This document shows positions 14,223 to 63,990 of a DNA stretch of 64,000 nt, in pieces; the stretch's first letter is position 1, and every line of letters starts with the position of its first letter. The notes beneath the pieces were generated by a model. It searched no databases and had not been told where the DNA came from. It saw nothing but the letters and a program-made list of their open reading frames with translations. The stretch comes from Haloferax gibbonsii ATCC 33959 (GTDB lineage: Archaea; Halobacteriota; Halobacteria; Halobacteriales; Haloferacaceae). The stretch lies in assembly GCF_000336775.1 (NCBI RefSeq), contig NZ_AOLJ01000001.1:1-64000 (forward strand). Reading direction: 5' to 3'. Made by a program: the position numbers and the translations under genes.

Positions 14223-14283
14223 AGAGTATCGTCTCGACCGGAAGGCAAAACTCTACGGTGGTGCGGTTAGATTCGGTGACCAG

Positions 14284-20333: not shown

Positions 20334-20335
20334 CT

Positions 20336-21091
20336 ATGGCTATACAGTCCACAGCGCTCGAGTCAAAACTCGAGAGCCTCGAACAGAAGGCGGACCAGTA
20401 CGACACGCGAACGAACACGGCAGCTCGAGTTAACAAAGCCGAAGAACACCTGATGGAACTGAACCAGGCGCTTAACAAACTCGAGGGTTCGCTTGACGTT
20501 TTCGAACAGCAGGCGGGAATCCTAACAGAGGTCTTCGGACACTCCCCCCCGTCGAGGGCGACAAGTGCCCGTGACAAGGCACGCTCGATTACACGCGTCT
20601 CTCAGGATGACGTTCTCGACATGATCGACGAAAGTGGCCAATCGTTGTCGAATCATATCGACGAGGTCCGAGAGACACGTGAGGACGTGAACGACGCACG
20701 ACGATCCATCAACGATCACCTAAAAAAGATTCAGCGTCGAAAACTCGATGACGCGAACACCGCGGAGAGCATTCAGAAGATCGTCGGCGAGGATCCAGAC
20801 GCGATGGACACGATTAGCCGGTATCGGTCGTTCATCAGGTCTATCCTCAATCCCAATGGTTCGGTTTCCAGCCTAAAGACACAGTGGCAGGGACTGGAAA
20901 AGGCCTTCGAGAACCTCGATACGGACTGGAAGGGCTTCCAGAGACACCACGACCTCAGCGATCAAACGATTGAAGATCTGAAGACGCTTAGTGAGGAGGG
21001 CCAAGTCGACCTCGATGACCTTTCAGATGCGAGCGTCAATGAGATGCTAAATATTCCCGAACTCCGGTCGACAATCAAGGTGAGTCTATAG
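20336..21091 (+). CDS. Coiled-coil operon protein, 251 aa
   Basis: The protein is almost wholly helical. Residues about 5-55 form a strong coiled coil (SKLESLEQKADQYDTRTN and LMELNQALNKLEGSLDVFEQ) and a second follows near 100-130. No enzyme motif is visible. It starts 2 bp after the ATPase stop and ends 6 bp before the first helicase, so it is embedded in the operon and probably a structural bridge between ATPase and helicases. I do not recognise a family. Confidence 0.65.
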   Translation: MAIQSTALESKLESLEQKADQYDTRTNTAARVNKAEEHLMELNQALNKLEGSLDVFEQQAGILTEVFGHSPPSRATSARDKARSITRVSQDDVLDMIDESGQSLSNHIDEVRETREDVNDARRSINDHLKKIQRRKLDDANTAESIQKIVGEDPDAMDTISRYRSFIRSILNPNGSVSSLKTQWQGLEKAFENLDTDWKGFQRHHDLSDQTIEDLKTLSEEGQVDLDDLSDASVNEMLNIPELRSTIKVSL

Positions 21092-21097
21092 ACGCCA

Positions 21098-26620: not shown

Positions 26621-29600
26621 CCCACAACACACTTGAGCATGCTGAAGACCTGAAGCGCACATATGGCGACCACTACGTCGCCAGCCAAAACACCGCGACG
26701 CTCAAAGACATCATCTCGCGCTACGAGGGCGGGACAGAGCAGTCGCTCCACGATCGACTTCCCGAATTCATGCGGACGCGCGGTCCATTCCTCCAGGCCC
26801 TCAATCTGCCACGGCAGAGTGACACTCCGTGGCCAGCGTTCGCCGAAACCCGGCCGTCAATCGCCGACGACGCGCCTGACGGCCTCCACGACGATATCGT
26901 TCGGACGTTCTCTGAGGCTGGCTTCGAGCGCCTCTACGCGTTCCAAGAGGACACAGCGGACGCGATACTCGCCGACGACCACACCCTCGTCACCGCCGGG
27001 ACCGGTCGCGGCAAGACCGAGAGCTGGCTCATCCCCATTCTCCAGTACATCTGTGAGGCGAAAGCTGGCTACCACGACGCCGATCCGCAGAGCGTCAAGT
27101 GTGTCCTCACCTATCCGACGAAAGCGCTTGCACAGGATCAACTGAAGCGCCTCATCGGGTACCTCTCTACGCTCAACGAGACGCGAACCGGTACCGACCG
27201 GATCACCGTCGGCATCTTCGACGGTGACACCCCGCACAACGACCCGGACGCTTACTCGTATCTCGACACCTCGTTCAAGTACTTCGAGTGTCCATGCAGC
27301 AACTGCTCGTCCTCACTAACGGTCGAACGGACCGAGGACGGCTATCGTGTCACACACGATTCGGCCACCGAAATGGACGTCGACCTCGACTTCATCGAAC
27401 TCACGCGCGAGGAAATCGTCGACGCTGAAGTCGACATCCTCCTCACCAACCCAGACACCGTCAACTATCGTTTGTTCAATATCAACGAGCAAGACGAACA
27501 GGCCGTGTTCGTCACGGAGCCGAAGTATGTCGTCTTCGATGAGATCCACGAGTACTCCGAACTCTTCGGTTCGTTCACCGCGACACTCATGCGGCGCTAT
27601 CTCCGCTCTCGTCGTTCACTACTCGGACTCAATGATGACGTGGACGACGATCTCCGACTCGTCGGCGCCAGCGCGACCGTCGAGAACAAGCGTGCAATCT
27701 TCCAGCGCATCAACCCCTTCACAGACGCGGACATCACCGTTGTCGAAGAGGACCCACGGACGCTTGAGTGCCAATTCCCCGATGACCTCCCTGCCCCGCT
27801 CGTTGAACGCACCGCCGACCCGGGTCTTCTCGCCGATACGTCTTCGAAGTGGACGCCCGCCGAATCCTTAGTCGCAGATGTTATCGGGGAACTCCCCAGT
27901 AATGCTGATTCTGGCGAACGACGGCGCATCGCCGGCGACCGACTCTACGACACCCTCCTCGACGAGCGCGGCGACGACCTCGACATCGTCCGCGCGCTCT
28001 ATACGACGCTTCACGAGGAGGCGCAGCGTCCTGCGGACCTTCGCGAGACGCTCTCGGAGACGTACGACCTCACCGATGACCAGGCTGGCCGACTCGTCGA
28101 TAACTTCGTCACGCTCGGTCAGCTATCCGGTGTCCTCGAGAGTCGGGCTCACCTCTTCAGTTGGCCGCTCGACGGCTACTACACCTGCGTGAACTGTGCC
28201 GCCGTCTACGACACGCCGCAGTCAGAGTGCACTCAGTGCGGCCATCACTTCGTTACAAAACTCGCTTACTGCAACCACTGCGGTGAGGAGGCGCTCGAGT
28301 CCTGGTTCTGCCCGGACTGCGAACGGCTCTCCCCACTCAACGTCACGTCTGGTGAGGGCCGCTTCGAGTACTTCCAAGACCATACGTGCAGTTGCGGAAC
28401 GGAGACGATCCGGACGGTCTGGCGCCCCTACTACGAGTGTTCTGGGTGTTGGAATCAACAGAAGATCGACCGGATTACTCACTGTCCGGACTGCGACACC
28501 GCCATGGTCCTCAGCGACGATCAGGACGACCTCGTCTGTCGGAACCCCGAGTGTGACGTCACACAGGAGACCGGGACGGAGGTTGTTTGTGAGAACTGCC
28601 ACTCAAACGACCTCGAACCGCTCAGCGACGATTCGGTGCTTTACTGTGAGGACTGCGGCGACGCCCACGAACAGGAGGCCGGCCACCAGTGCAGTTGCGG
28701 AGGGATGCTCCGTCCGAAGCGCTATCTCGGTTGGTCGTGCAGCGACCCTGATTGTGATGCAGTCTATTTCGGCGAACCGCCCAACACCTGTGATTGTGGG
28801 AAACGGCGATTCGCGCGCACTGGTTTGCTCGACATCAATGCAATTGACCACTGCTCGAACTGCGACACCGATCTCCTGCTGGGTGCTGAGTGTCGCTGTG
28901 ATGACCCTGCGATCTCGCCGACAGTTCGCGGGTTCCGCGAGTACAAACTTGTCGACGAACTCGGCCAGATTCGAAAACCTTCGTCGTTCCACGGTGCCGT
29001 TCCCTGCTACGACCCCCGGAAGACCTACCGGAAGTCATCGCGCTACGAGTCGATGATCCGCGGCCCCGGGAACACCGCTGTCACGACCGCGCAGTACTTC
29101 CTTCGTGAGACCGCGGACGTCAACGAACCTGACTCGTTCCGGGAGGCGAAGATGCTCTCATTCGCTGACAGCCAGTCGGACATGAAAGAACTCAACCGGA
29201 ACTTCACCGAACCTGAGCAGACGCTCTTCGTCACACAACTCGTCGTTGACACACTCGATGAGGCTGACGACAACTGGGTCTCGCTCGCTGAACTCCAGTC
29301 CACAGTCATCAAACGTGCCGTGGAGTACGAGGATATGCTCACTGAGGGCGATGGTGGGCTACTGGAAGCTATGACGGGCTATCGGCAGTCCGTCGAGGAC
29401 TTCCTGAAGGAGGAAGTCGCGGCACGCGTCCTTCGCGGGCGCTACAACAACCGCTGGCGAAGTCGTGACCATCTTCCCTCCGATGGCCTACTTGATGTCA
29501 GCCTTGACATCGACTTGAGCGACTTCGATTCGGGTGAGATGGCCGTCATCGAGGCCTTGAACGGGCAGAGTAAGCAGTACGTCGAATCGCTCAGTGACGA

Positions 29601-32076
29601 TATCGAGGATGCGGGTCGACACGTCGAATCCCTCATCGATCAGGACGTCCTCCGTCGCATCGAGACCGACTCCGGATATCTCATCGGATTTGACGAATCC
29701 TGTGTTTGCTGCACGACCGTCGACGCGGAGACGCCAATAACGTACGTTCCCGCAACGGAGTCGTTCTACTCGACGCTCGATGAGGTCTTCGCTGACCACG
29801 GCCCAGACCTCGACACGGTCACGTTCAGCGCTGATTACGAGGCCCGTAGCGAGTTCACGCACCCTCACTTCGACCTCACAGCCTACCGCGTGAACTATTC
29901 GGACCCCCTACTGCTCGTCTCCCGTGCCTACTTCGGGCTCACAGAGAAGGACGAACGCCGCCGTATCGAGTATCAGTTCCGGGAGGGTCGCTACCCCAAC
30001 TTCCTCTCTTCTGGACCGGCGATGGAAGTTGGGATGGACATCGGTGACCTCGATGCGCTCCTCCTCTACGGTACCCCGCCAAACACGAACTCGTACCTCC
30101 AACGGATCGGTCGAGCAGGCCGACAGTCCGGGTCGTCACTCGTCCACTCGATCAGTCAGCGAAACCCGATCGACTACTACTACTACGAACAGCCGAACGA
30201 ACTCATTCAGGCTAAACCCCAGCCTGTCCCACTCAACGAGACGAACGAAGAGGTGCTTCGTATCTCGCTGACGTGGGCAATCCTCGACTATTTCGCCGCC
30301 GAATGCTGGATTCCGTGGCGTCGCGAGAGCAGCGATGTCGTTGACGAACTCTATTGTGAGGACGATCTCGTCCCACGGAGTGAACCGCGGCCAAATGACA
30401 TCGTGACCTTCACCGCACTTCTCGCGAGCGAGAACGATGCGATCCAGTTCGTCGACGAGGAAGCCCCTCTCCAGACGCTCAAGGTGGCGTACGAGGAACA
30501 TCGAACCGAAGTACGCGACTGGCTTGAGGACATTCTCGGCTTCAGTTACTGTCGTGATTGCGGTCGGAAGCACGAGGCCGGCTACGAGGGTCCGTGTAGT
30601 CGTCCGGAGTGCGACGGCCGTGTCGTCTCTGCGGTCAACGCACACGAGGACGTCATAGAGGAGGCGATGACGACATTCGTCGACGAGTTCGTCGAGAGCT
30701 ACTTCGATTTTGAGGACGACATCCTCAACGAACTCGATAAGGTCCAAACACAGCTCAACGAACTCAATCTGGAGTCACGTGGCCGGCGAAACCGCCGCCG
30801 ACAGAACTCGAATGATCGCGTTGAACAGCGCGACGAGCGTGATCGACTACAGAGTCGGAGCGCAAATCTAAACCAGTATTTGGACCGACTTGCACGGATG
30901 GATTACGGGTCGTTCCTCGAAGAGCACAGCACCACGCCGTTCAGTCTCCGCTCCGTCGAGGATACAGTAGAATACGAACTTATCGGTGAAGACTTCGAGT
31001 CTGTGACCGCCGACTTGCACTCTCGGCCAATCAGGATTGCGCTCTCCGAACTCCATCCCGGTGCCGCCTATCTCCATTCGGACAATCAGCGCTACGTCGT
31101 CACCGGCGTACGCGCCCACTCCTATCAGACTTCTCAACTCGAGAGCACCGCCGCGATCTGTCCGACGTGCGGCGCCGAATACGACCTTGGTGAGGGCCCC
31201 TGCGAGGAGTGCGGCTCCGACCTCAAGCGCCTGAAGACGATCGTCCCCGAGCGCGTCACCGCGTACAAGTCCGACCTCGTACTCGGTCAACTGCCGAACG
31301 GCGACCCCCTCCTCCCGACTCGGCTGTACCAGTCGGATTCCGAGGTGCAGGACACCTACGCACCTACTGAAACGAATGTGACTGCGTTCGACCCCGAACC
31401 AGAGAGAGCGTTCGCCATCACGACCGACGACGGTGACTCTGTAGGACGGTTCGATTACGGAGATGTCACCATCAACTCGTCCGTCCGTCAGTTCAAAGCT
31501 CACTACGTTGGTGGCGGGTCAGATCCGCTACCGAACGTCTTCGAACTCTGTGGAAAGGAAAACTGTGATGGGGTCATCGCACGCGACGACGAGACGGCTT
31601 ACTGTATGCGTCATCCCGAACACTCGACTGAGAACACGGACGTCGTCCGCCTCGCAACCGAGTTCGACACGAAGGCTGTCCGTATCCAGTTCGACGACGA
31701 AGACCTGGAGCACGCCTTCTCGCACGGAGTCCGAATGGCGCTTCAGTACATTGGCGGCGTCGGCGTTCGGGCCGTCCCCGAATCGCTCGGTGAGGACGGA
31801 ACCTACATCTTCGACAACGAAACTGGCGGTAGCGGTGTCACCGTCCTCCTAACGATGGGGTCCGGTAACACGCGGGAGAAATTCGACACTGCAATCAGCC
31901 TCATCGAAGACGCATTCGAATGTAGCTGTGACAATGGCTGTCCGTTCTGCATCTACCAGTACGGTTGTGAGAATCAGAACGACCCTGAGACAATCGCGAA
32001 AGAAGACCTCATGGCGCTCATCGACGCAGGATTGACACTCACTCAGCGCGAGGTCGAGGCGGACGATGACGAATAG
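26617..32076 (+). CDS. Giant SF2 helicase with zinc knuckles and DUF1998-type C-terminus (copy 2)
   Basis: This is a tandem paralogue of the preceding helicase with the same order of parts in 1819 residues. Motif I is AGTGRGKTE near 126, motif II is VVFDEIHEY near 307, motif III is GASATVEN, and motifs V-VI are SSGPAMEVGMDIGDL and LQRIGRAGRQSG near 1161. A zinc-ribbon array lies at about 520-760 and CDNGCPFCIYQYGCENQ near 1768. All helicase motifs are intact in both copies, so neither is decaying. Shared stretches such as YYYYE.P.....KP.PVPLNE.NEEVLR show an old duplication followed by divergence. It overlaps the helicase 1 stop by 4 bp and the PLD gene by 11 bp. The two may act as a heterodimer or read different substrates. 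Confidence 0.85.
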   Translation: MTHNTLEHAEDLKRTYGDHYVASQNTATLKDIISRYEGGTEQSLHDRLPEFMRTRGPFLQALNLPRQSDTPWPAFAETRPSIADDAPDGLHDDIVRTFSEAGFERLYAFQEDTADAILADDHTLVTAGTGRGKTESWLIPILQYICEAKAGYHDADPQSVKCVLTYPTKALAQDQLKRLIGYLSTLNETRTGTDRITVGIFDGDTPHNDPDAYSYLDTSFKYFECPCSNCSSSLTVERTEDGYRVTHDSATEMDVDLDFIELTREEIVDAEVDILLTNPDTVNYRLFNINEQDEQAVFVTEPKYVVFDEIHEYSELFGSFTATLMRRYLRSRRSLLGLNDDVDDDLRLVGASATVENKRAIFQRINPFTDADITVVEEDPRTLECQFPDDLPAPLVERTADPGLLADTSSKWTPAESLVADVIGELPSNADSGERRRIAGDRLYDTLLDERGDDLDIVRALYTTLHEEAQRPADLRETLSETYDLTDDQAGRLVDNFVTLGQLSGVLESRAHLFSWPLDGYYTCVNCAAVYDTPQSECTQCGHHFVTKLAYCNHCGEEALESWFCPDCERLSPLNVTSGEGRFEYFQDHTCSCGTETIRTVWRPYYECSGCWNQQKIDRITHCPDCDTAMVLSDDQDDLVCRNPECDVTQETGTEVVCENCHSNDLEPLSDDSVLYCEDCGDAHEQEAGHQCSCGGMLRPKRYLGWSCSDPDCDAVYFGEPPNTCDCGKRRFARTGLLDINAIDHCSNCDTDLLLGAECRCDDPAISPTVRGFREYKLVDELGQIRKPSSFHGAVPCYDPRKTYRKSSRYESMIRGPGNTAVTTAQYFLRETADVNEPDSFREAKMLSFADSQSDMKELNRNFTEPEQTLFVTQLVVDTLDEADDNWVSLAELQSTVIKRAVEYEDMLTEGDGGLLEAMTGYRQSVEDFLKEEVAARVLRGRYNNRWRSRDHLPSDGLLDVSLDIDLSDFDSGEMAVIEALNGQSKQYVESLSDDIEDAGRHVESLIDQDVLRRIETDSGYLIGFDESCVCCTTVDAETPITYVPATESFYSTLDEVFADHGPDLDTVTFSADYEARSEFTHPHFDLTAYRVNYSDPLLLVSRAYFGLTEKDERRRIEYQFREGRYPNFLSSGPAMEVGMDIGDLDALLLYGTPPNTNSYLQRIGRAGRQSGSSLVHSISQRNPIDYYYYEQPNELIQAKPQPVPLNETNEEVLRISLTWAILDYFAAECWIPWRRESSDVVDELYCEDDLVPRSEPRPNDIVTFTALLASENDAIQFVDEEAPLQTLKVAYEEHRTEVRDWLEDILGFSYCRDCGRKHEAGYEGPCSRPECDGRVVSAVNAHEDVIEEAMTTFVDEFVESYFDFEDDILNELDKVQTQLNELNLESRGRRNRRRQNSNDRVEQRDERDRLQSRSANLNQYLDRLARMDYGSFLEEHSTTPFSLRSVEDTVEYELIGEDFESVTADLHSRPIRIALSELHPGAAYLHSDNQRYVVTGVRAHSYQTSQLESTAAICPTCGAEYDLGEGPCEECGSDLKRLKTIVPERVTAYKSDLVLGQLPNGDPLLPTRLYQSDSEVQDTYAPTETNVTAFDPEPERAFAITTDDGDSVGRFDYGDVTINSSVRQFKAHYVGGGSDPLPNVFELCGKENCDGVIARDDETAYCMRHPEHSTENTDVVRLATEFDTKAVRIQFDDEDLEHAFSHGVRMALQYIGGVGVRAVPESLGEDGTYIFDNETGGSGVTVLLTMGSGNTREKFDTAISLIEDAFECSCDNGCPFCIYQYGCENQNDPETIAKEDLMALIDAGLTLTQREVEADDDE

Positions 32077-34042
32077 CCTCCCTGCCGAGGTCGCCGACAT
32101 CCGTACTCGCTCCCCAGAGTCCCTCTGGGGCGTCTCAGCCGAGAGTATCTACCTCGCCGTCTGCGCCGTCGCAACCGATACCAACCTCACGTACGCACTC
32201 AGACCACATCATATCGCTACCGTCTTCCAGACGAACGATGAGCGCGCTCCTGAAACCGTTGCTGATGTACATCTGTTCCTCCTCACCAAACTCGGACTCG
32301 TTACTGATACCCACGAACTGACCGACTGCGGACGGTTCGTCTTGGCGAGCGAACGACCCGCTGATGCTGTTCGCCTCGTCGCCACTCGACGCCTACCGCG
32401 TATCCAACAACTCCTCCGTGAGTTCGCCACCATCGATACGGATCGCCTCCCACGAAGTGAACTCGACACGCTCGTCCGTGACGCGGAAGACGAGGTCTTC
32501 ATTGCACCACTCCTCGCCTCACTTGCGTTCATCAGCCTCTATCCGGAAGGTGTCATCCTCAACCGTGAGACGATTACCCAGACGGTCGACCGACTTGAAC
32601 GGCACACGAAACGCCCGAACGCGGCAATCACGCTCATCACCGCGCTCACGGCACTCGACAACTCTCGTCTCATCGCCCGCGTCGCGACAACCTACACTAA
32701 CACGACTATCACACCAGCGGATGTCGACCAGACGGCCCCACTCGACGCACTTGCCACCATTGAGCTCGACTCACCAGAACGAACCCCGGTTGCCGAACTT
32801 ACCAACGCGATCGAAGACACCCGACTCGCCGTTGCCCACCACGCAGAAATCTTCGAGACCGCTCTCGACCCAGAGGACCACTCTGTCGAATGCGACGACG
32901 CGACCGTCGATAGCGACCTCGTCAAGGACGTGTTTCCAGACGATCCGTCCCACGAGGCTGTCACGGAGACACTCGACCTCATCGCCACGATTCACACTCA
33001 TCCCACCCTCCACTCGGTCGCTCTCTCTTCACTCACCGATACCCTGGATCTCGATCCCTACCCACTCTACCGTACTATCTCCAACCTTCCGGGTGTCGAC
33101 TGTTCGCTCCGAGATGATCTCCTCATAACCTTCGACGCTGTTCCGTCCGCCCCGGAGGGGACTGATCGCTACGACGGCTTCCGCGATGATCTCTTCGACG
33201 CACTCCACACGCGACTCTCGTGGTTCGACGCTCTCACCGATGTCACGCTCAGGGAAGCACCGCGAATGAGGGAAAACATCATCGAATCACTCGTCATGGG
33301 TGTTGACGACGATCTTGTTGCCCCGACATACTTCGTCTATACCCTCCCGGACCCAGAAGCTCTCGGGAAGGAACGCATGGAGCAGTACGTCGACGACCAG
33401 CCCGCACTACGACGAGAACGTGCGCGCTTGAAACGCTGGAAGGGCCAGCGGGATAACGATCTGCGCCGCTTTACCGAAATGACGGATCGCCTCTTCACAC
33501 GAGGCCAAGAGCGTGACCTTGACGAACGCGTCGTCCGCATCATGACACCATACGATGACGACACTTTCTCCGAGTACACCTCACAGCTCCGGAGTCTCCT
33601 CCGGGACGGCTACGAACTTCGCCTCCTCACTCGGCACACGAAACGTCGATGGGAGTGGGAACGACTCCGCGACAATCTCCTCGGCGATCTCGAGGAGAAC
33701 CGCGAGAATGTCACTATCCGGACGTACTCCCGATACAAGAAATATCAGCGGATCACAAGCGAGACGGACGAAACTGACCTCGCTGAGTTTGGCATCCATG
33801 CAAAACTTCAGACCATTGGACACGCAACTGAGGGTGCCGCACTCCTCGGTTCGGCGAACTTCATGGAGAACAGCTACAACTGGAATCCCGAATGTGGGGT
33901 CTATACGGAGAACTCAAACTTCGTCGCCGCCGCAATCGACTTTTTCGACCACGTCTGGGAGCTCTCCGAGGCTGACGAAGTCGATCTCAGCAGTCTGCAG
34001 GAGATCCCTCGTCGCTCCTTCTACCCTTCCTACTACACGTAA
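32066..34042 (+). CDS. PLD-family protein ending the helicase operon
   Basis: The first 450 residues are helical with wHTH-like segments (LFLLTKLGLVTDTHELTDCG). The C-terminal 170 residues form a phospholipase D-type domain: RVVRIMTPYDDDTFSEY, YELRLLTRH, then the single HxK motif FGIHAKLQTIG followed by LLGSANFMENSYNWNPE. PLD domains in DISARM (DrmC) and Dpd (DpdK) systems are presumed nucleases; one HxK motif implies a dimeric active site. It is 658 residues, larger than a minimal DrmC. The 11-bp overlap with helicase 2 indicates coupled translation, and it is the last gene before an AT-rich spacer. It may supply the cutting activity of the complex. Confidence 0.8.
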   Translation: MTNSLPAEVADIRTRSPESLWGVSAESIYLAVCAVATDTNLTYALRPHHIATVFQTNDERAPETVADVHLFLLTKLGLVTDTHELTDCGRFVLASERPADAVRLVATRRLPRIQQLLREFATIDTDRLPRSELDTLVRDAEDEVFIAPLLASLAFISLYPEGVILNRETITQTVDRLERHTKRPNAAITLITALTALDNSRLIARVATTYTNTTITPADVDQTAPLDALATIELDSPERTPVAELTNAIEDTRLAVAHHAEIFETALDPEDHSVECDDATVDSDLVKDVFPDDPSHEAVTETLDLIATIHTHPTLHSVALSSLTDTLDLDPYPLYRTISNLPGVDCSLRDDLLITFDAVPSAPEGTDRYDGFRDDLFDALHTRLSWFDALTDVTLREAPRMRENIIESLVMGVDDDLVAPTYFVYTLPDPEALGKERMEQYVDDQPALRRERARLKRWKGQRDNDLRRFTEMTDRLFTRGQERDLDERVVRIMTPYDDDTFSEYTSQLRSLLRDGYELRLLTRHTKRRWEWERLRDNLLGDLEENRENVTIRTYSRYKKYQRITSETDETDLAEFGIHAKLQTIGHATEGAALLGSANFMENSYNWNPECGVYTENSNFVAAAIDFFDHVWELSEADEVDLSSLQEIPRRSFYPSYYT

Positions 34043-54021: not shown

Positions 54022-54354
54022 CTACGGCAATAACGCGGTTGTAGCCGTTCCGTCTAGCGAAGCTACAGAGCCGTTCTCATCGATTGCAGGGAGTCTGTTG
54101 CCAAACTCGTGGTCAGTTATTCTCTCTCCAGTGTTGATGTCCACTTCAGTACTGCCAGAGAATGTTCCAGATTCTACGAGAACCATTCCATCCTTCGACA
54201 CTACAGGTGCATGCCAAGTGTCGATACCGACGTCAATTGTAGTTCGGTTTTCTGGAGAGATGCGGACTCCCATCAACGGTTGATGACCTGTCCGTTTTGG
54301 GTCGCGCTGTGCCATCGTCCACCGGCTGTCTTCTCTCGGAGATTCATTGCTCAC
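54022..54354 (-). CDS. PQQ/beta-propeller-like protein fragment (N-terminal part)
   Basis: A GTG at 54354 overlaps the stop of the upstream gene by 11 bp and opens a 110-residue frame with DSRWTMAQRDPKRTGHQ, a repeat WHAPVVSKDGMVLVESG and DINTGERI. This is the pattern of one or two PQQ-like beta-propeller blades. It stops at 54022 just before the broken IS5 transposase, and a full propeller would need several more blades, so it is probably truncated. A related C-terminal piece lies at 60502-60969 on the same strand, but in the wrong order to be the other half of this gene by simple insertion. Confidence 0.5.
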   Translation of the reverse strand: MSNESPREDSRWTMAQRDPKRTGHQPLMGVRISPENRTTIDVGIDTWHAPVVSKDGMVLVESGTFSGSTEVDINTGERITDHEFGNRLPAIDENGSVASLDGTATTALLP

Positions 54355-54859
54355 CAGAGTTGTAGATGTCCGTGTCTGTACTATCCGACTGATACAGTTC
54401 AGTATCAGTGTTGTCTGTATTTGCTTCGTTGGAGCTCTGCGTCTCACTCTGCGAACGTTCCGTTGTGCTTGTGGACGAGTCCGTGCTCGTCGTACGTATC
54501 CATTCATCTGAGACATAGTACAAACTACTTCGAATGAGCCCCTTTTTGAGTTGTAAAAAGAGACGCTTATCCCCTAAGTCTAAATCGTGGTCTGTGATTG
54601 CAGAGTACTTTTTCGACGTGTCGAGGTCTTCTATTTTGACTTTATTCGCTTCTCCCCAGACCTGTCTAAACTCGACGACTTGTCCACGTCCAGCTTTTAT
54701 TGAACTACCCTCTCTCAGATGCGTTTTGTATTCGTCAGGTATTTCAAAGGAAAACCGCTCGTTAGTGGCAGGATCTGAAGTTTCAATATGAATTGACAGT
54801 AAATTACTCACTTCGAGACGGGTAGTTTGATATACCCCTGTGACATCAAACCTTTGCAT
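54344..54859 (-). CDS. Hypothetical protein with T-rich tail and Txx(Y) motifs
   Basis: I start it at ATG 54859 (MQRFDVTGVYQTTRLEV), giving 171 residues; the frame upstream is AT-rich and non-coding in look. The first 110 residues form a compact beta/alpha domain of unknown type. The tail is rich in Ser/Thr and ends in two related motifs, DTELYQSD and DTDIYNSG, which recur in other proteins of the kinase cluster and could be phosphorylation sites bound by FHA domains. It overlaps the propeller-like gene downstream. Confidence 0.6.
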   Translation of the reverse strand: MQRFDVTGVYQTTRLEVSNLLSIHIETSDPATNERFSFEIPDEYKTHLREGSSIKAGRGQVVEFRQVWGEANKVKIEDLDTSKKYSAITDHDLDLGDKRLFLQLKKGLIRSSLYYVSDEWIRTTSTDSSTSTTERSQSETQSSNEANTDNTDTELYQSDSTDTDIYNSGEQ

Positions 54860-55078
54860 GGGTGTCAATAAAATTGAATAGAATAAGAAGATATTGTAAT
54901 GTGGATTATATTTCTGCAACCTTCCCAGAAACAAGCGCATATATTACAACTAATTTCCTATGTGATTAATCCCCCAATATGTAGATTTATTCTACCGAAT
55001 TGAATATTCAACAGTAGAGACATTAAACCATATGAGTTCTACAAACTCAGACTACTACTACAGTCGGATTATCGACAT

Positions 55079-55315
55079 CTACAAATTTCTCATCGGGTCG
55101 TTTGCACTCACGCTACTCTCAAAGAAGACGGTCTCACACATCGATCGTTGGCGGTAGCGAGGCCCATCGACCCACGCGTTGTGCGCGTGGTTGATTGGCC
55201 GGAAGATGCGATGATTAAGCAGCGGTCTCACGTCCTCTTCTCGCAGTTTCTCGCGTAAATCCATTCAGTCGTAGCCTTTGTCAGCGGCGAGGCTGTGGAA
55301 TGACGGTTCCCACTT
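55079..55315 (-). pseudogene. Fragment of an IS5-family transposase
   Basis: Reading the minus strand, LAADKGYD precedes an in-frame stop and is followed by MDLREKLREEDVRPLLNHRI, HAHNAWVDGPRYRQRSMCET and then degenerate sequence. These match the second Asp through the Glu region of the 36014 transposase (GIRPLIKHRIFAPYDHAHNA, QRSMTETV). No intact ends flank it. It is a decayed relic of an earlier insertion. Confidence 0.75.
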
Positions 55316-55665
55316 GAGTGTTGGTGAGGGTGTTGACCGATTCGTCTTGGGATCATCAAATCTGTGAGTTGGGTTGGCCATCTGAAATGGCGCCATCAGT
55401 AGTTTCTGGGATAGTATGGGTGAGAAAATATCGGATTAACGATGGTTTCACCCGTCGCAGATAGGACTTCCGGTGAAGTATTTGCTGGTGATTGTGAAAG
55501 CAGTCAGACTACGCCGGGGGTCCCATGATTTGGCGAGAAATCCAGAGTGTACAGCAATTACCGGGCGGCTTAAGTGTATCCCAAGCAGAGTCCGCGGGTG
55601 GATTTTTCATAACAGTATTTTGGGGGTATCCTTTTCAGATAGTAAATGTATATGTTAACCTACTG
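55316..55665. other. Non-coding stretch upstream of the cold-shock gene
   Basis: I see no gene in these 350 bp. The in-frame extension upstream of the cold-shock gene from 55525 has no domain match and is probably untranslated. A TATA-like AGTAAATGTATATG lies near 55641-55654, in position for a promoter with a short leader before the ATG at 55666. Confidence 0.4.
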
Positions 55666-56220
55666 ATGGCCAACCAACTGAACTGCACCGGAACGGTTGA
55701 CTTTTTGATCGATACTGGGTATTACGGGTTTTTGACTACAGATGACGTCAGAGAAGACGTCTTCTTCCACCTCGCGGATGTTGACTCAATGTCCACAGTC
55801 AAAGAGGGGGACTCAATACGATTCAGTTATGCGCAAGCTGAGAAAGGACCGAGAGTCATCGACATGGAGAAGACAATCACAGAACCGGCTGATCAACCGA
55901 ATCAAGAAACACCACCCAGCTCCCCGAATCAACTGCCCGGTGAGATTACATTTTACAATGAGACTGGTGGGTACGGATTCATCTCAACTGACAGTGTTGA
56001 AGATGACGTGTTCTTCCACAGTAAAGACCACTCGATTGGGAGTATCGAAGAAGGTCGGTACGTCTTGTTCGAGTACGAACAAGCCGAGAAGGGACCGCGT
56101 GCAACCGATGTCCGCTATATGAACAGCGGTGACACCGCTAATGAAGAGACGGCTATCCATTCGGACAACACCGATAGAAAGGATGAAGCCACCAAAATCT
56201 TCGACCCAGACAATCAATAA
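55666..56220 (+). CDS. Tandem cold-shock-domain protein
   Basis: Two cold-shock-like domains are present. The first reads GTVDFLIDTGYYGFLTTDDV then EDVFFHLADV; the second reads GEITFYNETGGYGFISTDSV then DDVFFHSKD. Each is followed by a strand ending YAQAEKGPR or YEQAEKGPR. These folds bind single-stranded nucleic acid. The C-terminus ends ATKIFDPDNQ, a T-x-I-F motif like those in neighbouring proteins. I chose the ATG at 55666. It converges with the kinase gene, 8 bp away. Tandem CSDs on one chain are unusual. Confidence 0.85.
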   Translation: MANQLNCTGTVDFLIDTGYYGFLTTDDVREDVFFHLADVDSMSTVKEGDSIRFSYAQAEKGPRVIDMEKTITEPADQPNQETPPSSPNQLPGEITFYNETGGYGFISTDSVEDDVFFHSKDHSIGSIEEGRYVLFEYEQAEKGPRATDVRYMNSGDTANEETAIHSDNTDRKDEATKIFDPDNQ

Positions 56221-56228
56221 TCAGTAAG

Positions 56229-57443
56229 TCACTTGGCTGTCGAAAAGACGAGCTCAAACCCGTACTCAGGATCGACGGGAGAAATCGTGGTCCCGTCGGT
56301 GAGTATTGCACCTCCGTGTGGTTGGTCTGCAGTGCGGTCGATACGCCCGGCCGAAAGCTGTTGTTGATAGCCCTCATCACTCAGAATCCACGTCCACCCA
56401 GTGCCATCATTGATGTATGTGCCATTTAGACTGGTATCATACAACACCCACCGAGAACCATCCCACTCGATTCGAAATTGCTGTTCAGAGATGTGTTGTT
56501 GGCCATCTATGAGCTTGATCTCAGGCGTGGGTTCCTGCCCCAGTGGGCGGCCCACGCTGTCCCCTGGCGTAATCTCAACTGTAATGTCTCCCCGTGACTC
56601 CCTCAATACTGCAGTTCGCTTCGACAGCCCAGCAGCCGTTCGCAGTTGCTGGAGAAGTTCACCGCCATCTGATGGGCGTGCAGCAGGGTCACGTTTTGTT
56701 GCCGACTGAATCACCTTAGAGACTGACTGCGTACAGGACGCACCATCGCTTCGGGGATCAAGTCCACTTGCGGGCGTCTCGTCCAAGTCGTATGACTGCC
56801 CCGTTAACAAATAGTGAATCGTCTTACCAGCACTGTAGACATCTGACCAAGCACCTGTCTCGGCATTGCGAAGGTCAGTTGGTGCCAGCTCAGGCGGTGT
56901 ATATCGATCGGCATAAAACAGCGTTGAATCGCCTGTGAAGCTTCGGACACTGGTGTTGAAATCAACTAGGGCAAGCGTCCCATCCTCTCGATGACGGATG
57001 TTTTTGGGCTTGACATCGAGGTGGAGGATCTGATTCAGGTGGATGAACGCCATCATCTGTGCTACAGCAAAGAGAGGATGCGACTCGGATCGCGTATCCA
57101 CTTCTCCGCTCTGCGATGAGCGCAGGTCGTCGAGGTCTCCTCCGGAGATGTACTCCAATGCGATATACGGGCCTGTTCGAGTGAATTGTGCGTTGACAAG
57201 ATGGGCGATACATGACGCCGTCATGGACCCCGACAGGTACCTAAGAATGCTCTTTTCTTGCTCAAACCGTGTTTCGACCACCGAACGATCATGTGAGGAG
57301 TCATCAGGGAGTTTGAGCGCGATAGACTCGCCAGTGTAATCATCATGGGCTTTCCACACCGTTGCAAACCCCCCACTCCCGACTTGTGTAAGAAGCTCAA
57401 ATCGGGAGTCAACTATATCACCATGACTGAGATTCCATGTCAT
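56229..57443 (-). CDS. Ser/Thr protein kinase fused to an FHA domain
   Basis: The kinase domain has the glycine loop VGSGGFATVW, the ATP Lys in ALKLP (K44), the catalytic loop HLDVKPKNI (D143, K145, N148), metal-binding DFN (D161 in LVDFNTS) and PPEL for APE. An FHA domain follows at about 305-400, with FRIEWDGSRWVLYDTSLNGTYIND. The kinase phosphorylates Ser/Thr and the FHA binds phosphothreonine, so the protein can recruit its own or neighbouring substrates. The start is ATG 57443 (MTWNLSHGDIVDS). It is the hub of this cluster, whose other members carry T-x-x-aromatic motifs. Confidence 0.9.
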   Translation of the reverse strand: MTWNLSHGDIVDSRFELLTQVGSGGFATVWKAHDDYTGESIALKLPDDSSHDRSVVETRFEQEKSILRYLSGSMTASCIAHLVNAQFTRTGPYIALEYISGGDLDDLRSSQSGEVDTRSESHPLFAVAQMMAFIHLNQILHLDVKPKNIRHREDGTLALVDFNTSVRSFTGDSTLFYADRYTPPELAPTDLRNAETGAWSDVYSAGKTIHYLLTGQSYDLDETPASGLDPRSDGASCTQSVSKVIQSATKRDPAARPSDGGELLQQLRTAAGLSKRTAVLRESRGDITVEITPGDSVGRPLGQEPTPEIKLIDGQQHISEQQFRIEWDGSRWVLYDTSLNGTYINDGTGWTWILSDEGYQQQLSAGRIDRTADQPHGGAILTDGTTISPVDPEYGFELVFSTAK

Positions 57444-57526
57444 GGCAATTATGAGACCGTGGTAGAACAGCCAACGGAAGTTACATACTGAAATGATCGA
57501 CCGATGTAGACATTCTCGGACATTTT

Positions 57527-57985
57527 CTATGAGATCTGATTCCCGCACCCCGGACAATAATTCACTGGCCCAGAGGTGGGCAGTTCCGTGCCACAGGCAG
57601 AACAGTAGTTTATGTTGGATGACGACCGGAAACCTCGGTAAAGCTTGGTGTCCTCGTTCGTAGTATCGATATTGTCTTCGATAGTTGCTGGATACTCCGA
57701 TTCGGGCATGGTTATACTCGAATCAATATGTCTCATTGCACGTTGGATTCGGTCGACAACTGTTTTATTCGGGCGCATATTTACCACAGATTCGAGCGCG
57801 TCGCGAATCTTGAGAGCTGTGTGTGGCTCAGCATATGCGAGCTTGACTGCGGCGTCGGACGCATAGATCTGTTCAGTATCGTCCCCGCTAAGGAGATGAC
57901 ATTTCACCGCTTTCAGATGTTTTGGCTTACCAACCTGTCGTGGACTCTTCACAGCTATTTTCTTGAGTGACTTCGCGGATTTCAT
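57527..57985 (-). CDS. Zinc-ribbon protein with DTKLY motif
   Basis: A basic N-terminus (MKSAKSLKKIAVKSPRQVGK) precedes an alpha-helical middle. The protein ends in a two-part zinc ribbon (NYCSACGTELP and NYCPGCGNQIS). An EDTKLYRGF motif lies just before the ribbon, like others in this cluster. There is no catalytic motif. It lies 84 bp upstream of the kinase on the same strand, probably in one transcript, and could be a kinase substrate or adaptor. Confidence 0.7.
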   Translation of the reverse strand: MKSAKSLKKIAVKSPRQVGKPKHLKAVKCHLLSGDDTEQIYASDAAVKLAYAEPHTALKIRDALESVVNMRPNKTVVDRIQRAMRHIDSSITMPESEYPATIEDNIDTTNEDTKLYRGFRSSSNINYCSACGTELPTSGPVNYCPGCGNQIS

Positions 57986-58057
57986 ACCGATAACTAGCTC
58001 ATTCTATCAGTAGACATGTGCGGCATCTTTAGTGTAATCCCATTTCTGTCACCACCC

Positions 58058-58846
58058 TCACGTTGAGTTTCCACATTGCGGGCAGAACTCCGGGTCATTG
58101 TATTGTGACAAGTCGGCGTCACACTGTGAGCAGGTTGAACTGCTGAACAAGCCCCAGATTCCTGAGGAAAACAGCAGACTGGCTGCACTCCAGAATCCAA
58201 TCGTGTACACCAGCGATCCGAGGAGGAGTATCGCAATTTCGCTGGCAAGACTGAAACTATAGATTTGGCCGCCGGCGACTCCAAGCGCGATTCCGCCAGT
58301 AACACCGAGATTCGTGTCTGCTTGGACCTTGCGAAGCCGCCACCGGACAGAAATGAGCGTTAACACCACGACGAGCACCGTATACACAAGCGAGAGATTG
58401 TACCAGAGGCTCCCAATGAAGGGCCCGTCAATGAGGATTTTGAGGAGGAGTGAGACCCCCAGAGTTGTTATAAAGAATACCACGAGAATGTGGCGAACTT
58501 TCGTGAATACACTTGATGAATAGTACCCACCGCGGAAGAACGTGAGTAACCGGACGAAGATGAGTACGGCCGCTGCTCCTTCGACCGCTCGAAACAGGAT
58601 GAACAGATAGGTTCCGTACAGGCCAAAGTTGCCTTGGATCAGTGATAGCGCAATAAAAAAGTAGCCTAAACCCAGCCCAAGAACGCCGACAAGCCGTTCA
58701 CGCCGAGTATACTGTGAGTAGAGCCCTTGCTGCTTCACAGCGTTGATGACGACTCCCAAGAACATCGACTCGATGCCCAGCGTAATCAACCAGACTGGCA
58801 GGGTACTCGGCACCGGGTCTGTAATGGCACTAATTTGGAAAATCAT
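58058..58846 (-). CDS. Polytopic membrane protein with C-terminal zinc ribbon
   Basis: About seven hydrophobic helices are visible (for example WLITLGIESMFLGVVI, YFFIALSLI, ILVVFFITTLGVSLLL). The cytoplasmic end has a zinc ribbon, STCSQCDADLS and EFCPQCGNST, of the same type as in the neighbouring proteins. It could be a membrane sensor or anchor feeding the kinase. It lies 3 bp after the small membrane gene at 58850 on the same strand. Confidence 0.75.
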   Translation of the reverse strand: MIFQISAITDPVPSTLPVWLITLGIESMFLGVVINAVKQQGLYSQYTRRERLVGVLGLGLGYFFIALSLIQGNFGLYGTYLFILFRAVEGAAAVLIFVRLLTFFRGGYYSSSVFTKVRHILVVFFITTLGVSLLLKILIDGPFIGSLWYNLSLVYTVLVVVLTLISVRWRLRKVQADTNLGVTGGIALGVAGGQIYSFSLASEIAILLLGSLVYTIGFWSAASLLFSSGIWGLFSSSTCSQCDADLSQYNDPEFCPQCGNST

Positions 58847-58849
58847 ATG

Positions 58850-59137
58850 TTATTCTGTTGAAACGATTAGCCAGAACGTTCGTGCACACACTACCAACGG
58901 TATCACTACCGCACCAGCGGCGATGGCAATGGTCGTGAGTTCGGTAATAACGGGAAACCGATCCATTCCTTCGAAGAGCATCAATACGATTGACGCACTA
59001 AGGAGGAATCGAAGCCGCTGATTCTGTCTGAGATTCGGGATATGGTGCGTCCCCAAGACAGTCATTGCGACGACACAGAGGGCGAGACCAATTTGTCGCA
59101 AGAGTGCTGGGTCCCACTGTGTAATTGGCGCTACCAT
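58850..59137 (-). CDS. Small membrane protein, 95 aa
   Basis: It has three predicted hydrophobic helices (QIGLALCVVAMTVLGTHHI, FLLSASIVLMLFEGM and TIAIAAGAVVIPLVVCA) separated by basic loops. No family is recognised. It immediately precedes, and probably shares a transcript with, the polytopic zinc-ribbon membrane protein; the pair may form one complex. Confidence 0.65.
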   Translation of the reverse strand: MVAPITQWDPALLRQIGLALCVVAMTVLGTHHIPNLRQNQRLRFLLSASIVLMLFEGMDRFPVITELTTIAIAAGAVVIPLVVCARTFWLIVSTE

Positions 59138-59261
59138 ATAGGCACAAATAATCTCTGCAGTGGATATAATATCTGGGGGGAAGCCAGCACGACAACTGTG
59201 GGCACTGTCCCGTCAAAGGATGTGTCGAACGGTGAAAGAACGAGAAGCGAGTGAGATAGCC

Positions 59262-59386
59262 GGCTCTGTTGAAACCCTCTTGCCGTCTTGCGATTTGTTG
59301 AGAGACTAGTTTTCACTGTGATTCACGGAAACTAGCCAGAAAGAGCGCTCTCTGCAATGTCAACGCTGAAGGATTTCAACAGAGCC
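59262..59386. mobile_element. 125-bp MITE with 8-bp target duplication
   Basis: The ends are GGCTCTGTTGAAACCC at 59262 and GGATTTCAACAGAGCC at 59371-59386, an imperfect inverted repeat. The element has no coding capacity. It is flanked by an exact 8-bp repeat, AGATAGCC, at 59254-59261 and 59387-59394. Its ends match those of the IS at 60999-62217, so that family's transposase probably mobilised it. Confidence 0.9.
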
Positions 59387-59413
59387 AGATAGCCGGATTT
59401 TACGTCGTAGAGT

Positions 59414-60300
59414 ATGCTTTATGACATACGGAGCGCCACATTCTACCAGCACGAAGTCTCACTCTCGACTGTCAACGGGCGTGTCGAGTGTGACTTCGAA
59501 CTTCTCTCTGACAGTCCAACATCATACGAGCGGTACGTGCTGTCAGAAGAGTTCAAGCTCCGTGCGAGCACGCTCCAGTAGGACGCAGTTGCCGACGTAT
59601 TCTACATCCATATCACCACACGGAAGTGCGAATCTGAAGAGGACGACGGTGACGAAGCAGAGGATTCAGAAGATACTGAGCATCAAAGAGTCTTCGGTAT
59701 CGACCTCGGCGTTAACAGTCTCACCGTCTCTTCTACTGAACGCTTCTGGCAAGGAGACGACTACCACCACTGGTGTCGTGAGTTCGAGAAGTGACGCGGT
59801 GAGATACAATAGCGCGGCACGCAAGCCGCGCACAATGATTCACTTCGGCAAGCGCGAAGAGACATGGCGGAAACAGTACATCCACACCGTCGCCAACGAA
59901 CCCGTCACCGAAGCCGTTGAACACGACTGCGACGTAACGGTGTTCGAGGAGTTGACTGAAATCCGTGAACAATTCCTACAGGCGAAGTGGCACCACGTCT
60001 GGGCGTTCCGACGCCTGTTCAAGTACGTCGAGTAGAAAGCCCCTGAACAGGGTGTTTCCGTGAAGCAGGTCTGCCCAAATTACACCTCTCAATGCTGTTC
60101 TCGGATGGATTGCGGGTTCACACATGAGGCCAAGCTCCATGAAGAACACTTCCAATGCCAGAAGTGTGGGCACGAAGTGAATGCGGACTACAACGTCGCG
60201 ACATCGGGACGCGGTACGCTCAGAAGCGAACACACAGACTCCGTTCCTCGCCCAAGTCGGGAGGCGGAGACGCACCAGTAGACGTGCGTGTAAGCGGTGG
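59414..60300 (+). pseudogene. tnpB: Decayed tnpB of an IS200/IS605-type element
   Basis: The TnpB protein can be followed across several frames: MLYDIRSATFYQHEVSL, an in-frame TAG, VFGIDLGVNSLTVSSTERFW (RuvC Asp), further stops, RKQYIHTVANEPVTEAVEHD, VFEELTEIREQFLQ (RuvC Glu), and the zinc finger CSRMDCGFTHEA with FQCQKCGHEVNADYNVA (third Asp). TnpB is an RNA-guided nuclease encoded by these elements. At least three stops and frameshifts make it non-functional. The 5' end lies just beyond the MITE and no tnpA is present. Confidence 0.8.
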
Positions 60301-60501
60301 AACGTTGAACGGCGGGGGGTCACCAGTCTATTACTAGAGACTGATTGCCGGTCGCTCTCGACTCGAGACCACCACACTCTGTCGAGTGCTGCCCGGACCA
60401 CGCTGTGAGTATGGCCAAAGATTGCGGCAGTCCAGTGTTGGTAGCCGCCAGCGGCCCATGTAACGCCCCCTTCTGCGGGAGACTACGCAGCACCAGTGGC
60501 G

Positions 60502-60969
60502 TCAGATTTCGGTTCCACAACTTGGGCAGAAGGAAACCGAGGTGAACTCCTCCAGGCTGATTCCACAGGACGGGCAGAATGAGATGTCGACGCCACTATC
60601 CGACGGTGCCGTTTCGGTAGGCGTACCGTCGTAGACGTTCGTCTTGGGCGGGTCGGTCGCTCCGCCCCTGTACACTTGCGTGTCACTGGATTGCCTGCTC
60701 TGTCCGGATCCGAACGTCGACTCCGGCCCCAGCGCGTAGGCAGTGAGCGTCGGTCCGGCGGCGTACAGCGCACCGGCAGACGTGACATGGAGCGTTCCGT
60801 CGTCTAGATACTTCTCGACTGATCCGGTATCTCTGTCTAGGAGGTAGTTGCCGTAGATGACCCGTTCGCTTCCAGTCATCATGCGTGAGAAGCCACTACC
60901 GGTAAATTTCCATTGTGGACGTCCCATTGCGTCGTCGAAGCCGAAAAGTGTCTCACGGCCAACTCCCAT
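60502..60969 (-). CDS. PQQ-like propeller C-terminus with zinc ribbon, 5'-truncated
   Basis: The frame begins with blade-like repeats (ETLFGFDDAMGRPQWKFTG, VIYGNYLLDRDTGSVEKY, HVTSAGALYAAGPTLTAYAL), then a disordered tail with SDTQVYRGG and KTNVYDGT motifs, and ends in a zinc ribbon (SFCPSCGISLE, SFCPSCGTEI). The open frame continues upstream of the ATG (FFKTAAEPL) to the IS end at 60999, so the 5' part of the gene was lost there. Propeller proteins of this class usually have many more blades. The zinc ribbon and T-x-V-Y motifs link it to the kinase cluster. Confidence 0.65.
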   Translation of the reverse strand: MGVGRETLFGFDDAMGRPQWKFTGSGFSRMMTGSERVIYGNYLLDRDTGSVEKYLDDGTLHVTSAGALYAAGPTLTAYALGPESTFGSGQSRQSSDTQVYRGGATDPPKTNVYDGTPTETAPSDSGVDISFCPSCGISLEEFTSVSFCPSCGTEI

Positions 60970-62290: not shown

Positions 62291-63385
62291 GTGAGTGAGG
62301 CCGGGTACGACGACATGGGTGAGATACTGACCAATCTCGGGGTGAACCACTCGTCTCTCTCCGCGGTCGACCTGAGCAACGCGGAGCAATCCATCCTCAT
62401 GGTGAACTGCCACCAGAAGTGGCGAAACGACGCCGCAAGCACGGCAATGAGTGTGCTCCAGGAACTCGGAGCGGGCTCCGGGTCGTCCCTCGGTGACGTT
62501 GTGAAGGGGCTGGCTTCCGGGGTCAGCGGTGGTTCGCTGGCCGCCTTCGAAGAGTTCATTTCTGAGGGGAGCGCGGCGCTCATATCGGACTACGCCGGCG
62601 AACTGTTGACCGAGTTCACATCGGCAAACTTCGATACCAACACCCAGAGCAAGATCATCACGGCGAGTGTCGAAGACGACGAACTGGTCGAGCTGCTCGG
62701 CCGACAGACCATCGACCTCGAATTCGACCTCGATGGGTGGTACAAGCCCACCTCAATGCCGTCTGGGAGCCAGCCGCTCATTCGAAACCAAGTGACTGGG
62801 GACATACTTGCGTACAAGTTCCCCGTGTCTAGGGGAACTGTCGTGTACACGGCATTCCACAATCACGCACAGACGACGGAGCTGGAACGTGCCCTCCTCC
62901 GGTTGCTCGTCATGGTCCCGATAGCGGAGTCCACCGGAACGAGCATCAAGCAGACCTACACGACCATCACCGGCGATACGAGCGTCCAGCAGGGGGGGGA
63001 CGGTGATCAAAGACGACGACGCGGGCATGGGGACGACGCCCGCGCCCGGACAGTCGAGCGAAACCGGGCTGCCGACGACCACCGTCGAACTCGACGTCGT
63101 CGGCGGCGAGTCGGTCACCGAACACCTCACCGTCGGGCAGTCGGCGCAGGTCGGTCGGAACGACTTCGCCGGCCAGGTGTCGGACCAAGACCGGCAGTAC
63201 ATCTCGGGAACCCACCTGGACGTCAGCGTGCCATCCCCGGGAACCGTCGAGGTGAGGGCTTGAACAGTTCGAACGGAACCACGGTGAACGGCGTGGACAT
63301 TTCCGACGGCGAACCGCGGGAGGTAAGCAACGGCGCGGAGCTAGAACTCGCCGGCACGGCCACCGTGGTCGTCCGAGTCTCCTGA
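62291..63385 (+). pseudogene. FHA-domain protein gene with two frameshifts
   Basis: The first frame (62291 to about 62999) encodes a helical domain of unknown type ending in YTTITGDTSVQ. At an 8-G run (62992-62999) the homologous reading shifts by one base to TVIKDDDAGMGTTPAP, QVGRNDFAGQVSDQDRQYIS and THLDVSVPSPGTVEVR. It then shifts back near 63258 to LNSSNGTTVNGVDISDGEPR. Together these spell an FHA domain (GR..F, S..H, N, SxNGTTVNG). The frame also lacks an obvious native N-terminus near the IS end at 62217. Either the gene is dead, or the G-run and second shift are sequence errors. Confidence 0.7.
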
Positions 63386-63507: not shown

Positions 63508-63990
63508 TCAGGCGAAGTTCTGGGTGACGTACAGCCGGACCGTGTCCGACCCGGACCCCGACGCGTCGATGGCAGCACCGACACCCTCGCGTTCCCACTT
63601 CTGTCCCAGGACGTTCCGCCGGTGTCCCGCGGAGCCCATCCAGCCGTCGACCACGGTTCGGGCCAGTTCGGTCACGGCCCTCGCTCGGCGTCGTTCGGAG
63701 ACGCCTTCGATCCGGGAGAGACGGAAGGTTCGGCGGGAGATGTTCTCGCCACACCGGCGTCGCCGCTGAGTGGACGACCAGTAGCCGTGAGAGACGTATC
63801 GGTCGAAGGCGCTACGGCCGTCGGGCGTCGTGTGTGAGAAGAACCTACGGTCCGCCATGGCCTCGCTGTGGGCGCGGGCGATGCGCTCGAGGTCCTTGTC
63901 GTACGCGAGTTCGGAGAGTCCGTGGTCCGTCCGAACCTCGTTGACGAAGTGGTGAACCAGCGTCTCAACGTGGATTGGCTCGGTGTCCAT
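63508..63990 (-). CDS. CAP (SCP/PR1)-domain protein, possibly 5'-incomplete
   Basis: The sequence begins PIHVETLVHHFVNEVRTDHG and has the CAP motifs: LERIARAHSEAMADRRFFSH (first His and Glu region), GENISRRTF, DGWMGSAGHRRNVLG (second His) and VRLYVTQNFA at the end. CAP proteins are usually secreted, but no signal peptide is visible; the frame stays open upstream to the window edge, so an N-terminal extension may lie outside. The function in archaea is unknown. It converges with the FHA gene remnant. Confidence 0.8.
   Translation of the reverse strand: MDTEPIHVETLVHHFVNEVRTDHGLSELAYDKDLERIARAHSEAMADRRFFSHTTPDGRSAFDRYVSHGYWSSTQRRRRCGENISRRTFRLSRIEGVSERRRARAVTELARTVVDGWMGSAGHRRNVLGQKWEREGVGAAIDASGSGSDTVRLYVTQNFA

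Follow-up and report, generated by a model that had tools for sequence, protein, structure and literature searches.

A recurrent threonine tag in protein tails of haloarchaeal kinase-FHA gene clusters points to a probable phosphothreonine signalling hub

Among archaea FHA domains are uncommon, and hardly any of their ligands are known outside Sulfolobus. According to the accessible parts of the papers cited here, FHA domains prefer phosphothreonine to phosphoserine (PMC6509490), and the FHA ligand is a phosphothreonine with hydrophobic residues at +2/+3 in the actinobacterial GarA/OdhI systems with the kinases PknB/PknG and in Bdellovibrio DgcB; the GarA peptide contains ETTSVF (PMC8546545), and in the GarA, OdhI and DgcB self-ligands positions -3, +2 and +3 are hydrophobic, -2 is Glu and +1 is Ser (PMC6733907). 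Here a gene cluster is described from the initial 64 kb of the 134-kb contig NZ_AOLJ01000001.1 of Haloferax gibbonsii ATCC 33959 (the whole analysed stretch of 64,000 nucleotides, hereafter the window), in which otherwise different proteins encoded around a Ser/Thr kinase with an FHA domain carry the short motif T-x-[ILVM]-[FYW], called the tag below, in their tails. The tag shares the +2/+3 pattern of the described ligands and is often acidic at -1, whereas its remaining positions differ from the GarA, OdhI and DgcB self-ligands. The haloarchaeal module has a PknB-like kinase in common with GarA/OdhI, but in GarA/OdhI and DgcB the FHA protein itself bears the ligand, in its N-terminal tail, while the haloarchaeal tags are spread over numerous other proteins, frequently preceding a zinc ribbon. 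Tag and FHA domain in the same chain, as in GarA, were seen in one haloarchaeal family only, the homologues of the protein at 62291-63385 in the stretches labelled L012 and L028.

The cluster also resembles the ArnA/ArnB archaellum regulators of Sulfolobus in its ArnB-type vWA fold, its zinc-ribbon and FHA partner and its Hanks-type kinase. It comes with a PP2C phosphatase where the ArnA/ArnB system has PP2A, and while the phosphosites of Sulfolobus ArnB are reported in the C-terminal helix bundle (PMC6509490, accessible part), the haloarchaeal site is in a disordered terminal tail, and numerous further proteins have it too. Halo_FHA ESCRT loci likewise combine haloarchaeal FHA, kinase and phosphatase genes, with a phosphoprotein-cargo idea attached to them in the accessible text (PMC10936438), and are the nearest haloarchaeal FHA report found. 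An ESCRT (endosomal sorting complex required for transport) locus was rejected for the present clusters, near which Vps4/ESCRT-III genes were not found; the cluster stretches scanned gave no AAA-ATPase Walker match, and Snf7 matches fell short of the cut-off and lay at a distance from the clusters. In an actinobacterial gene set, as accessible in PMC7159879, vWA, PP2C and kinase are adjacent as in the haloarchaeal module, and the same adjacency, together with FHA proteins, occurs on a plasmid of the cyanobacterium Gloeothece. The parts of the system are of known kinds, and the recurrent haloarchaeal tail tag was not found reported in the accessible text of the literature on haloarchaeal or archaeal FHA proteins with kinase, PP2C, vWA or zinc ribbon, of which few subscription papers were covered.

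Ten tags were counted in seven proteins with unlike bodies, six of the tags in the window and four just past its end, the cluster extending to about 9 kb beyond it. To the initial annotation the motifs in such tails had looked like phosphorylation sites recognised by FHA and suggested an archaeal phospho-signalling network, in otherwise different proteins around a Ser/Thr kinase with an FHA domain. Its six motifs (DTELY, DTDIY, ATKIF, DTKLY, DTQVY and TNVY) all lay where it had placed them, the carrier proteins proved as dissimilar as described, and the kinase at 56229..57443 on the minus strand was recovered by Pfam (Pkinase 1e-24, FHA 4.3e-7); its reading of the tails is partly supported by the sequence comparisons that follow.

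Tails were taken as the last 120 residues and classed as disordered-like by a simple hydrophobic-content rule, with gene calls from our own scripts. In the source genome the tag was present in the filtered tails of 6/22 called cluster proteins vs 1/195 elsewhere (Fisher p=3.6e-6), the DTKLY of the protein at 57527 failing the filter and hence standing outside the six, and the serine version was absent from both groups (0/22 and 0/195). The filter matters, since the contrast was weaker without it (8/22 vs 17/195). The test is post hoc, the motif having been derived from this very cluster, and the independent one is provided by other genomes. Ten sites were likewise found in the seven tails where shuffling gave 0.26 expected, none of 100000 shuffles reaching ten, in a test biased by tails that had been picked for having the motif.

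A Pfam FHA search was positive for 25 of the 391 genomes of the class, the source genome included, and the cluster sample consisted of 27 stretches around clusters in the other 24, with 20 stretches as background. Labels denote stretches and coordinates count within each: L011 covers the continuation of the cluster past the window end, and L012, L013, L027, L028, L160, L161 and L173-L177 are further stretches. Left out of the counts were L010 (overlapping L011), the rows of L028 below 5000 (overlapping L027) and, as presumed duplicate clusters, L059-L062 and L065-L067; L063 and L064 were added, and L173-L179 stand outside the tail-tag statistics. In counts that are inflated by relatedness among the genomes, disordered-like cluster tails had the tag at 60 of 811 Thr and the corresponding site at 6 of 826 Ser and 3 of 1084 Asp, and background tails had it at 3 of 264 Thr and 1 of 204 Ser. 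Chance as the source of the motif was rejected by these counts and by the own-genome contrast. When the motif was shifted or reversed, 5 to 16 Thr matches were obtained against 76 for the true one, by which an artefact of this kind was also rejected, and among nine +2/+3 residue classes compared a strong Thr excess was seen for the aliphatic-aromatic class only. Related sites with an aliphatic residue at +3 occur in the tails of the vWA proteins and of the FHA-less PP2C (among them ATQIV, ATKIV, RETVIL and RDTVIM); this class was given little weight because it is much less Thr-specific (39/811 Thr vs 27/826 Ser).

The 60 sites amount to 51 distinct nine-residue strings in 50 proteins, with the consensus S-[DEN]-T-[REKQ]-[VI]-[FY]-[TD]-P-D, the first six positions of which are similar to the GarA self-ligand (ETTSVF), and after homologues had been deliberately over-merged ten tagged families were still left. 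Conservation in homologous clusters, which the initial annotation had put forward as a check, held for the motif as such, at least one tagged protein being present in 24/29 cluster stretches vs 3/20 background stretches, and did not hold for the tag of the protein at 57527. In the membrane zinc-ribbon protein of chromosomal clusters the motif Thr was invariant in 12/12 homologues; in the alignment of these 12 sequences over 571 columns only ten columns were invariant, namely the motif Thr, six zinc-ribbon and three membrane-region residues, and the linker around the tag was otherwise unalignable. In two genomes this protein is encoded about 190 kb from the module, with TTRVY still present.

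The tagged bodies are varied. HEAT proteins were tagged in three clusters (ETRLY and KTRLY; RTEVF; NTEIW and DTEIY) with dissimilar tails, and further tagged bodies are PQQ beta-propellers and cold-shock domains. The tail tag was found in none of six weak HEAT homologues from other genomes (0/6), which lie outside the list of 25 FHA-positive genomes, a list that undercounts. Five of these six tagless homologues terminate in zinc ribbons, and the tag as a general trait of zinc-ribbon tails was thus rejected. Within the module's cluster in L012, a protein at 16863-17573 combines a TATA-binding-protein domain and a zinc ribbon with an NTQVY tail near the C-terminus, hinting at a link to transcription. 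In L027 a protein at 12871-14934 with a sub-threshold DnaJ (J-domain) match has a linker with NTQIF and several consecutive DETVIQ copies, possibly a multi-site version of the tag.

The module comprises a vWA protein, a Ser/Thr kinase with FHA, a PP2C phosphatase and a zinc-ribbon-FHA protein, and vWA, kinase-FHA and PP2C were present in 27/27 clusters located by the FHA search. In five more genomes (L173-L177) consecutive genes encode vWA, kinase-FHA, PP2C, zinc-ribbon-FHA and a membrane protein with a tag; these genomes were missed by the Pfam FHA search and reached through another protein, so that the haloarchaeal FHA counts are underestimates. In the kinase-FHA set the catalytic Lys, Asp, Asn and Asp were invariant in 20/20 sequences, as were G-R and N-G-T of the phosphothreonine pocket, with its Ser in at least 90%. 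The best PDB match of the kinase profile was PknB, and the zinc-ribbon-FHA profile matched Rad53, GarA and OdhI with its FHA part and ArnA with its zinc-ribbon part. A predicted structure of a Halovivax vWA homologue (mean predicted local distance difference test score, pLDDT, 82.5) matched ArnB of the Sulfolobus ArnAB complex over its whole length (template modelling score 0.70/0.73; 8s05), and its tag-bearing last 16 residues had pLDDT <50. The ArnA/ArnB-type build was found accordingly, with vWA, beta-sandwich and helical domain and a partner gene for a zinc-finger FHA protein. A search of viral contigs with the kinase alignment gave 80 loci at 21-35% identity. A plain anti-phage kinase was rejected, the PADLOC matches PD-T4-6, mad6 and MkoA spanning the kinase domain only.

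Further plasmid regions served as controls. Among 102 tail Thr of two haloarchaeal plasmid regions in which a related vWA adjoins Hsp70 and of a third haloarchaeal plasmid stretch, a single tag was present. In three haloarchaeal plasmid regions that encode PP2C, two of them also kinases, 0 of 22 tail Thr were tagged, which are small numbers, and phmmer queries gave no FHA match in these three. The haloarchaeal plasmid regions L160 and L161, with several kinases and PP2C, no FHA match by phmmer and no tags, are a different kinase-phosphatase set.

Judged from sequence, the cluster quite probably encodes a phosphothreonine signalling hub, in which the kinase would phosphorylate the tag Thr and FHA would bind it, so that varied clients are tethered. 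The hub would be made up of one or two Hanks-type kinases with FHA, PP2C, a zinc-ribbon-FHA protein and an ArnB-type vWA protein, and client proteins of unlike bodies would each display a tail tag S-[DEN]-T-[REKQ]-[VI]-[FY]. Once the module kinase had phosphorylated the Thr, the module FHA domains would bind the phosphothreonine and read the hydrophobic residues at +2/+3, PP2C would reset the tag, and transcription, RNA, chaperone-like and membrane proteins would in this way be held at the hub. The preference for Thr over Ser at the site fits FHA because FHA domains select phosphothreonine; since a kinase preference alone could also give it, the FHA-binding step, like phosphorylation, reset and the purpose of the tag, is one that we only infer. 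It is on this point that the tag could be a kinase substrate site and nothing else, chosen by a PknB-like kinase preferring Thr with hydrophobic +2/+3; phosphorylation would then alter the tail or zinc ribbon, and FHA would assemble kinase, phosphatase and vWA, not clients. The kinship of the kinase profile to PknB as its best solved relative and the related sites in vWA and PP2C tails suit this explanation, but the agreement of the +2/+3 pattern with FHA self-ligands (PMC6733907, accessible part) and the pairing of the kinase with FHA in every cluster make it unlikely.

A docking peptide that needs no phosphorylation, with the vWA domain (the acidic -1 residue sitting at its metal site) or a zinc ribbon as conceivable partner, would be in keeping with the vWA protein in every one of the 27 clusters and with D, E or N at -1 in 32 of the 51 distinct sites. 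Plain docking would not, however, predict a central Thr so strongly favoured over Ser and Asp, and the related vWA regions adjoining Hsp70 are without tags, so we regard such docking as improbable. Shared ancestry, by which recombination carried copies of one zinc-ribbon-plus-linker tail from gene to gene and the motif is functionless, could draw on the double CxxC that terminates 33/50 tagged proteins and on single linkage, which put most tagged proteins into one family; yet 17/50 are without such an end, the Thr is invariant though linkers are unalignable, and ten families survive over-merging, which leaves this explanation highly improbable.

Several observations weigh against the phosphothreonine hub. 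The FHA domain of the window kinase has Gln in place of the structural His, and the zinc-ribbon-FHA domains are partly without the usual residues, the Asn being kept and several of the 14 sequences having lost G-R and Ser. The vWA tail has Ser for Thr in 3/15 sequences. The sole homologue found for the protein at 57527, in L013, is frameshifted and without the tag, and the Gloeothece plasmid row of vWA, FHA, PP2C and kinase-FHA lacks T-x-[ILVM]-[FYW] tail tags. No filtered tail tag was present in 5/29 stretches, three of which are explained by a membrane protein encoded elsewhere or outside the fetched DNA.

We hold the chances to be even that, taken together, a portable tail code exists in haloarchaea, by which any gene that gains an S-[DEN]-T-[REKQ]-[VI]-[FY] tail is made a client of the kinase/PP2C/FHA hub encoded locally, and that this hub is spread by plasmid-like contigs and takes in TATA-binding, J-domain, cold-shock, HEAT, beta-propeller and membrane bodies. 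If true, the code would give archaea a counterpart of modular phosphotyrosine-SH2 wiring, legible from sequence alone. From the conserved tag, lists of clients and exact phosphosites can be predicted for about 30 genomes; the tag also opens haloarchaeal kinase-FHA signalling to direct tests by means of synthetic peptides and suggests that signalling in prokaryotes can be wired via a short linear motif common to unrelated proteins.

As placed by open reading frames and motif positions, the first tagged gene of the window, at 54344..54940 on the minus strand with its start probably at 54859 or 54940, encodes a protein of a fold without match to known families (no match in Pfam and NCBIfam), with DTELY (54392-54406) at T180 and DTDIY (54362-54376) at T190 of the 198-residue frame. 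A protein with two cold-shock domains (Pfam CSD E 2e-23) follows at 55525..56220 on the plus strand, its start probably at 55666, with ATKIF (56188-56202) at T223 of 231, five residues before the C-terminus; the cold-shock protein in L012 bears DTKVF. The kinase at 56229..57443, a Hanks-type Ser/Thr kinase with a C-terminal FHA domain and the second kinase type of the module, has intact catalytic and FHA residues, and its start is probably 57443, not 57557/57548, according to homologue alignment. On the same minus strand lie a small protein at 57527..57985, with a C-terminal zinc ribbon by weak matches and DTKLY (57638-57652) at T113 of 152, and at 58058..58846 a membrane protein with a C-terminal zinc ribbon and a tail without tag, which adjoins the second kinase also in L013 and L027. 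At 60502..60969, again on the minus strand, a shortened relative of beta-propeller proteins with a C-terminal zinc ribbon has DTQVY (60670-60684) at T97 and KTNVY (60631-60645) at T110 of 155, and its homologue L028:5167-6738 (523 residues, PQQ_2) has DTQVY and ETNVY at identical spacing.

An FHA protein (22.1 bits) at 62291..63385 on the plus strand is spread over two frames by two compensating frameshifts, the frame changing near 63000 and 63260; its homologues are intact in L012, L013 and L028, and those in L012 and L028 bear tags such as MTEVY, ATTIY and TTEVY ahead of their own FHA domain. The continuation encodes PP2C-FHA (L011:1016-2524), kinase-FHA (L011:2526-3761), vWA (L011:3781-5010) and zinc-ribbon-FHA (L011:5176-5895), followed by a membrane protein with TTEIF two residues from its C-terminus (L011:6470-7114), the HEAT protein with NTEIW and DTEIY (L011:8804-9532) and an 83-residue open reading frame with DTKIY as its final residues (L011:9745-9996). 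A CAP-domain protein at window 63508-63990, with no counted tag in this genome, adjoins the module, as it does in L012, L013 and L027.

All five FHA matches of the genome in the Pfam search lie within the interval from 56.4 to 68.4 kb on the contig, which is plasmid-like, since Orc1/Cdc6 and a ParA-like open reading frame, the latter identified by eye, were found on it beyond the window. Elsewhere in the window, at 16974-34042, two neighbouring helicase-like proteins of about 1820-1840 residues (DruE/DpdJ-like) are followed by a DrmC-like protein, with a weak DpdH match upstream, and the region looks like a defence island of unassigned type.

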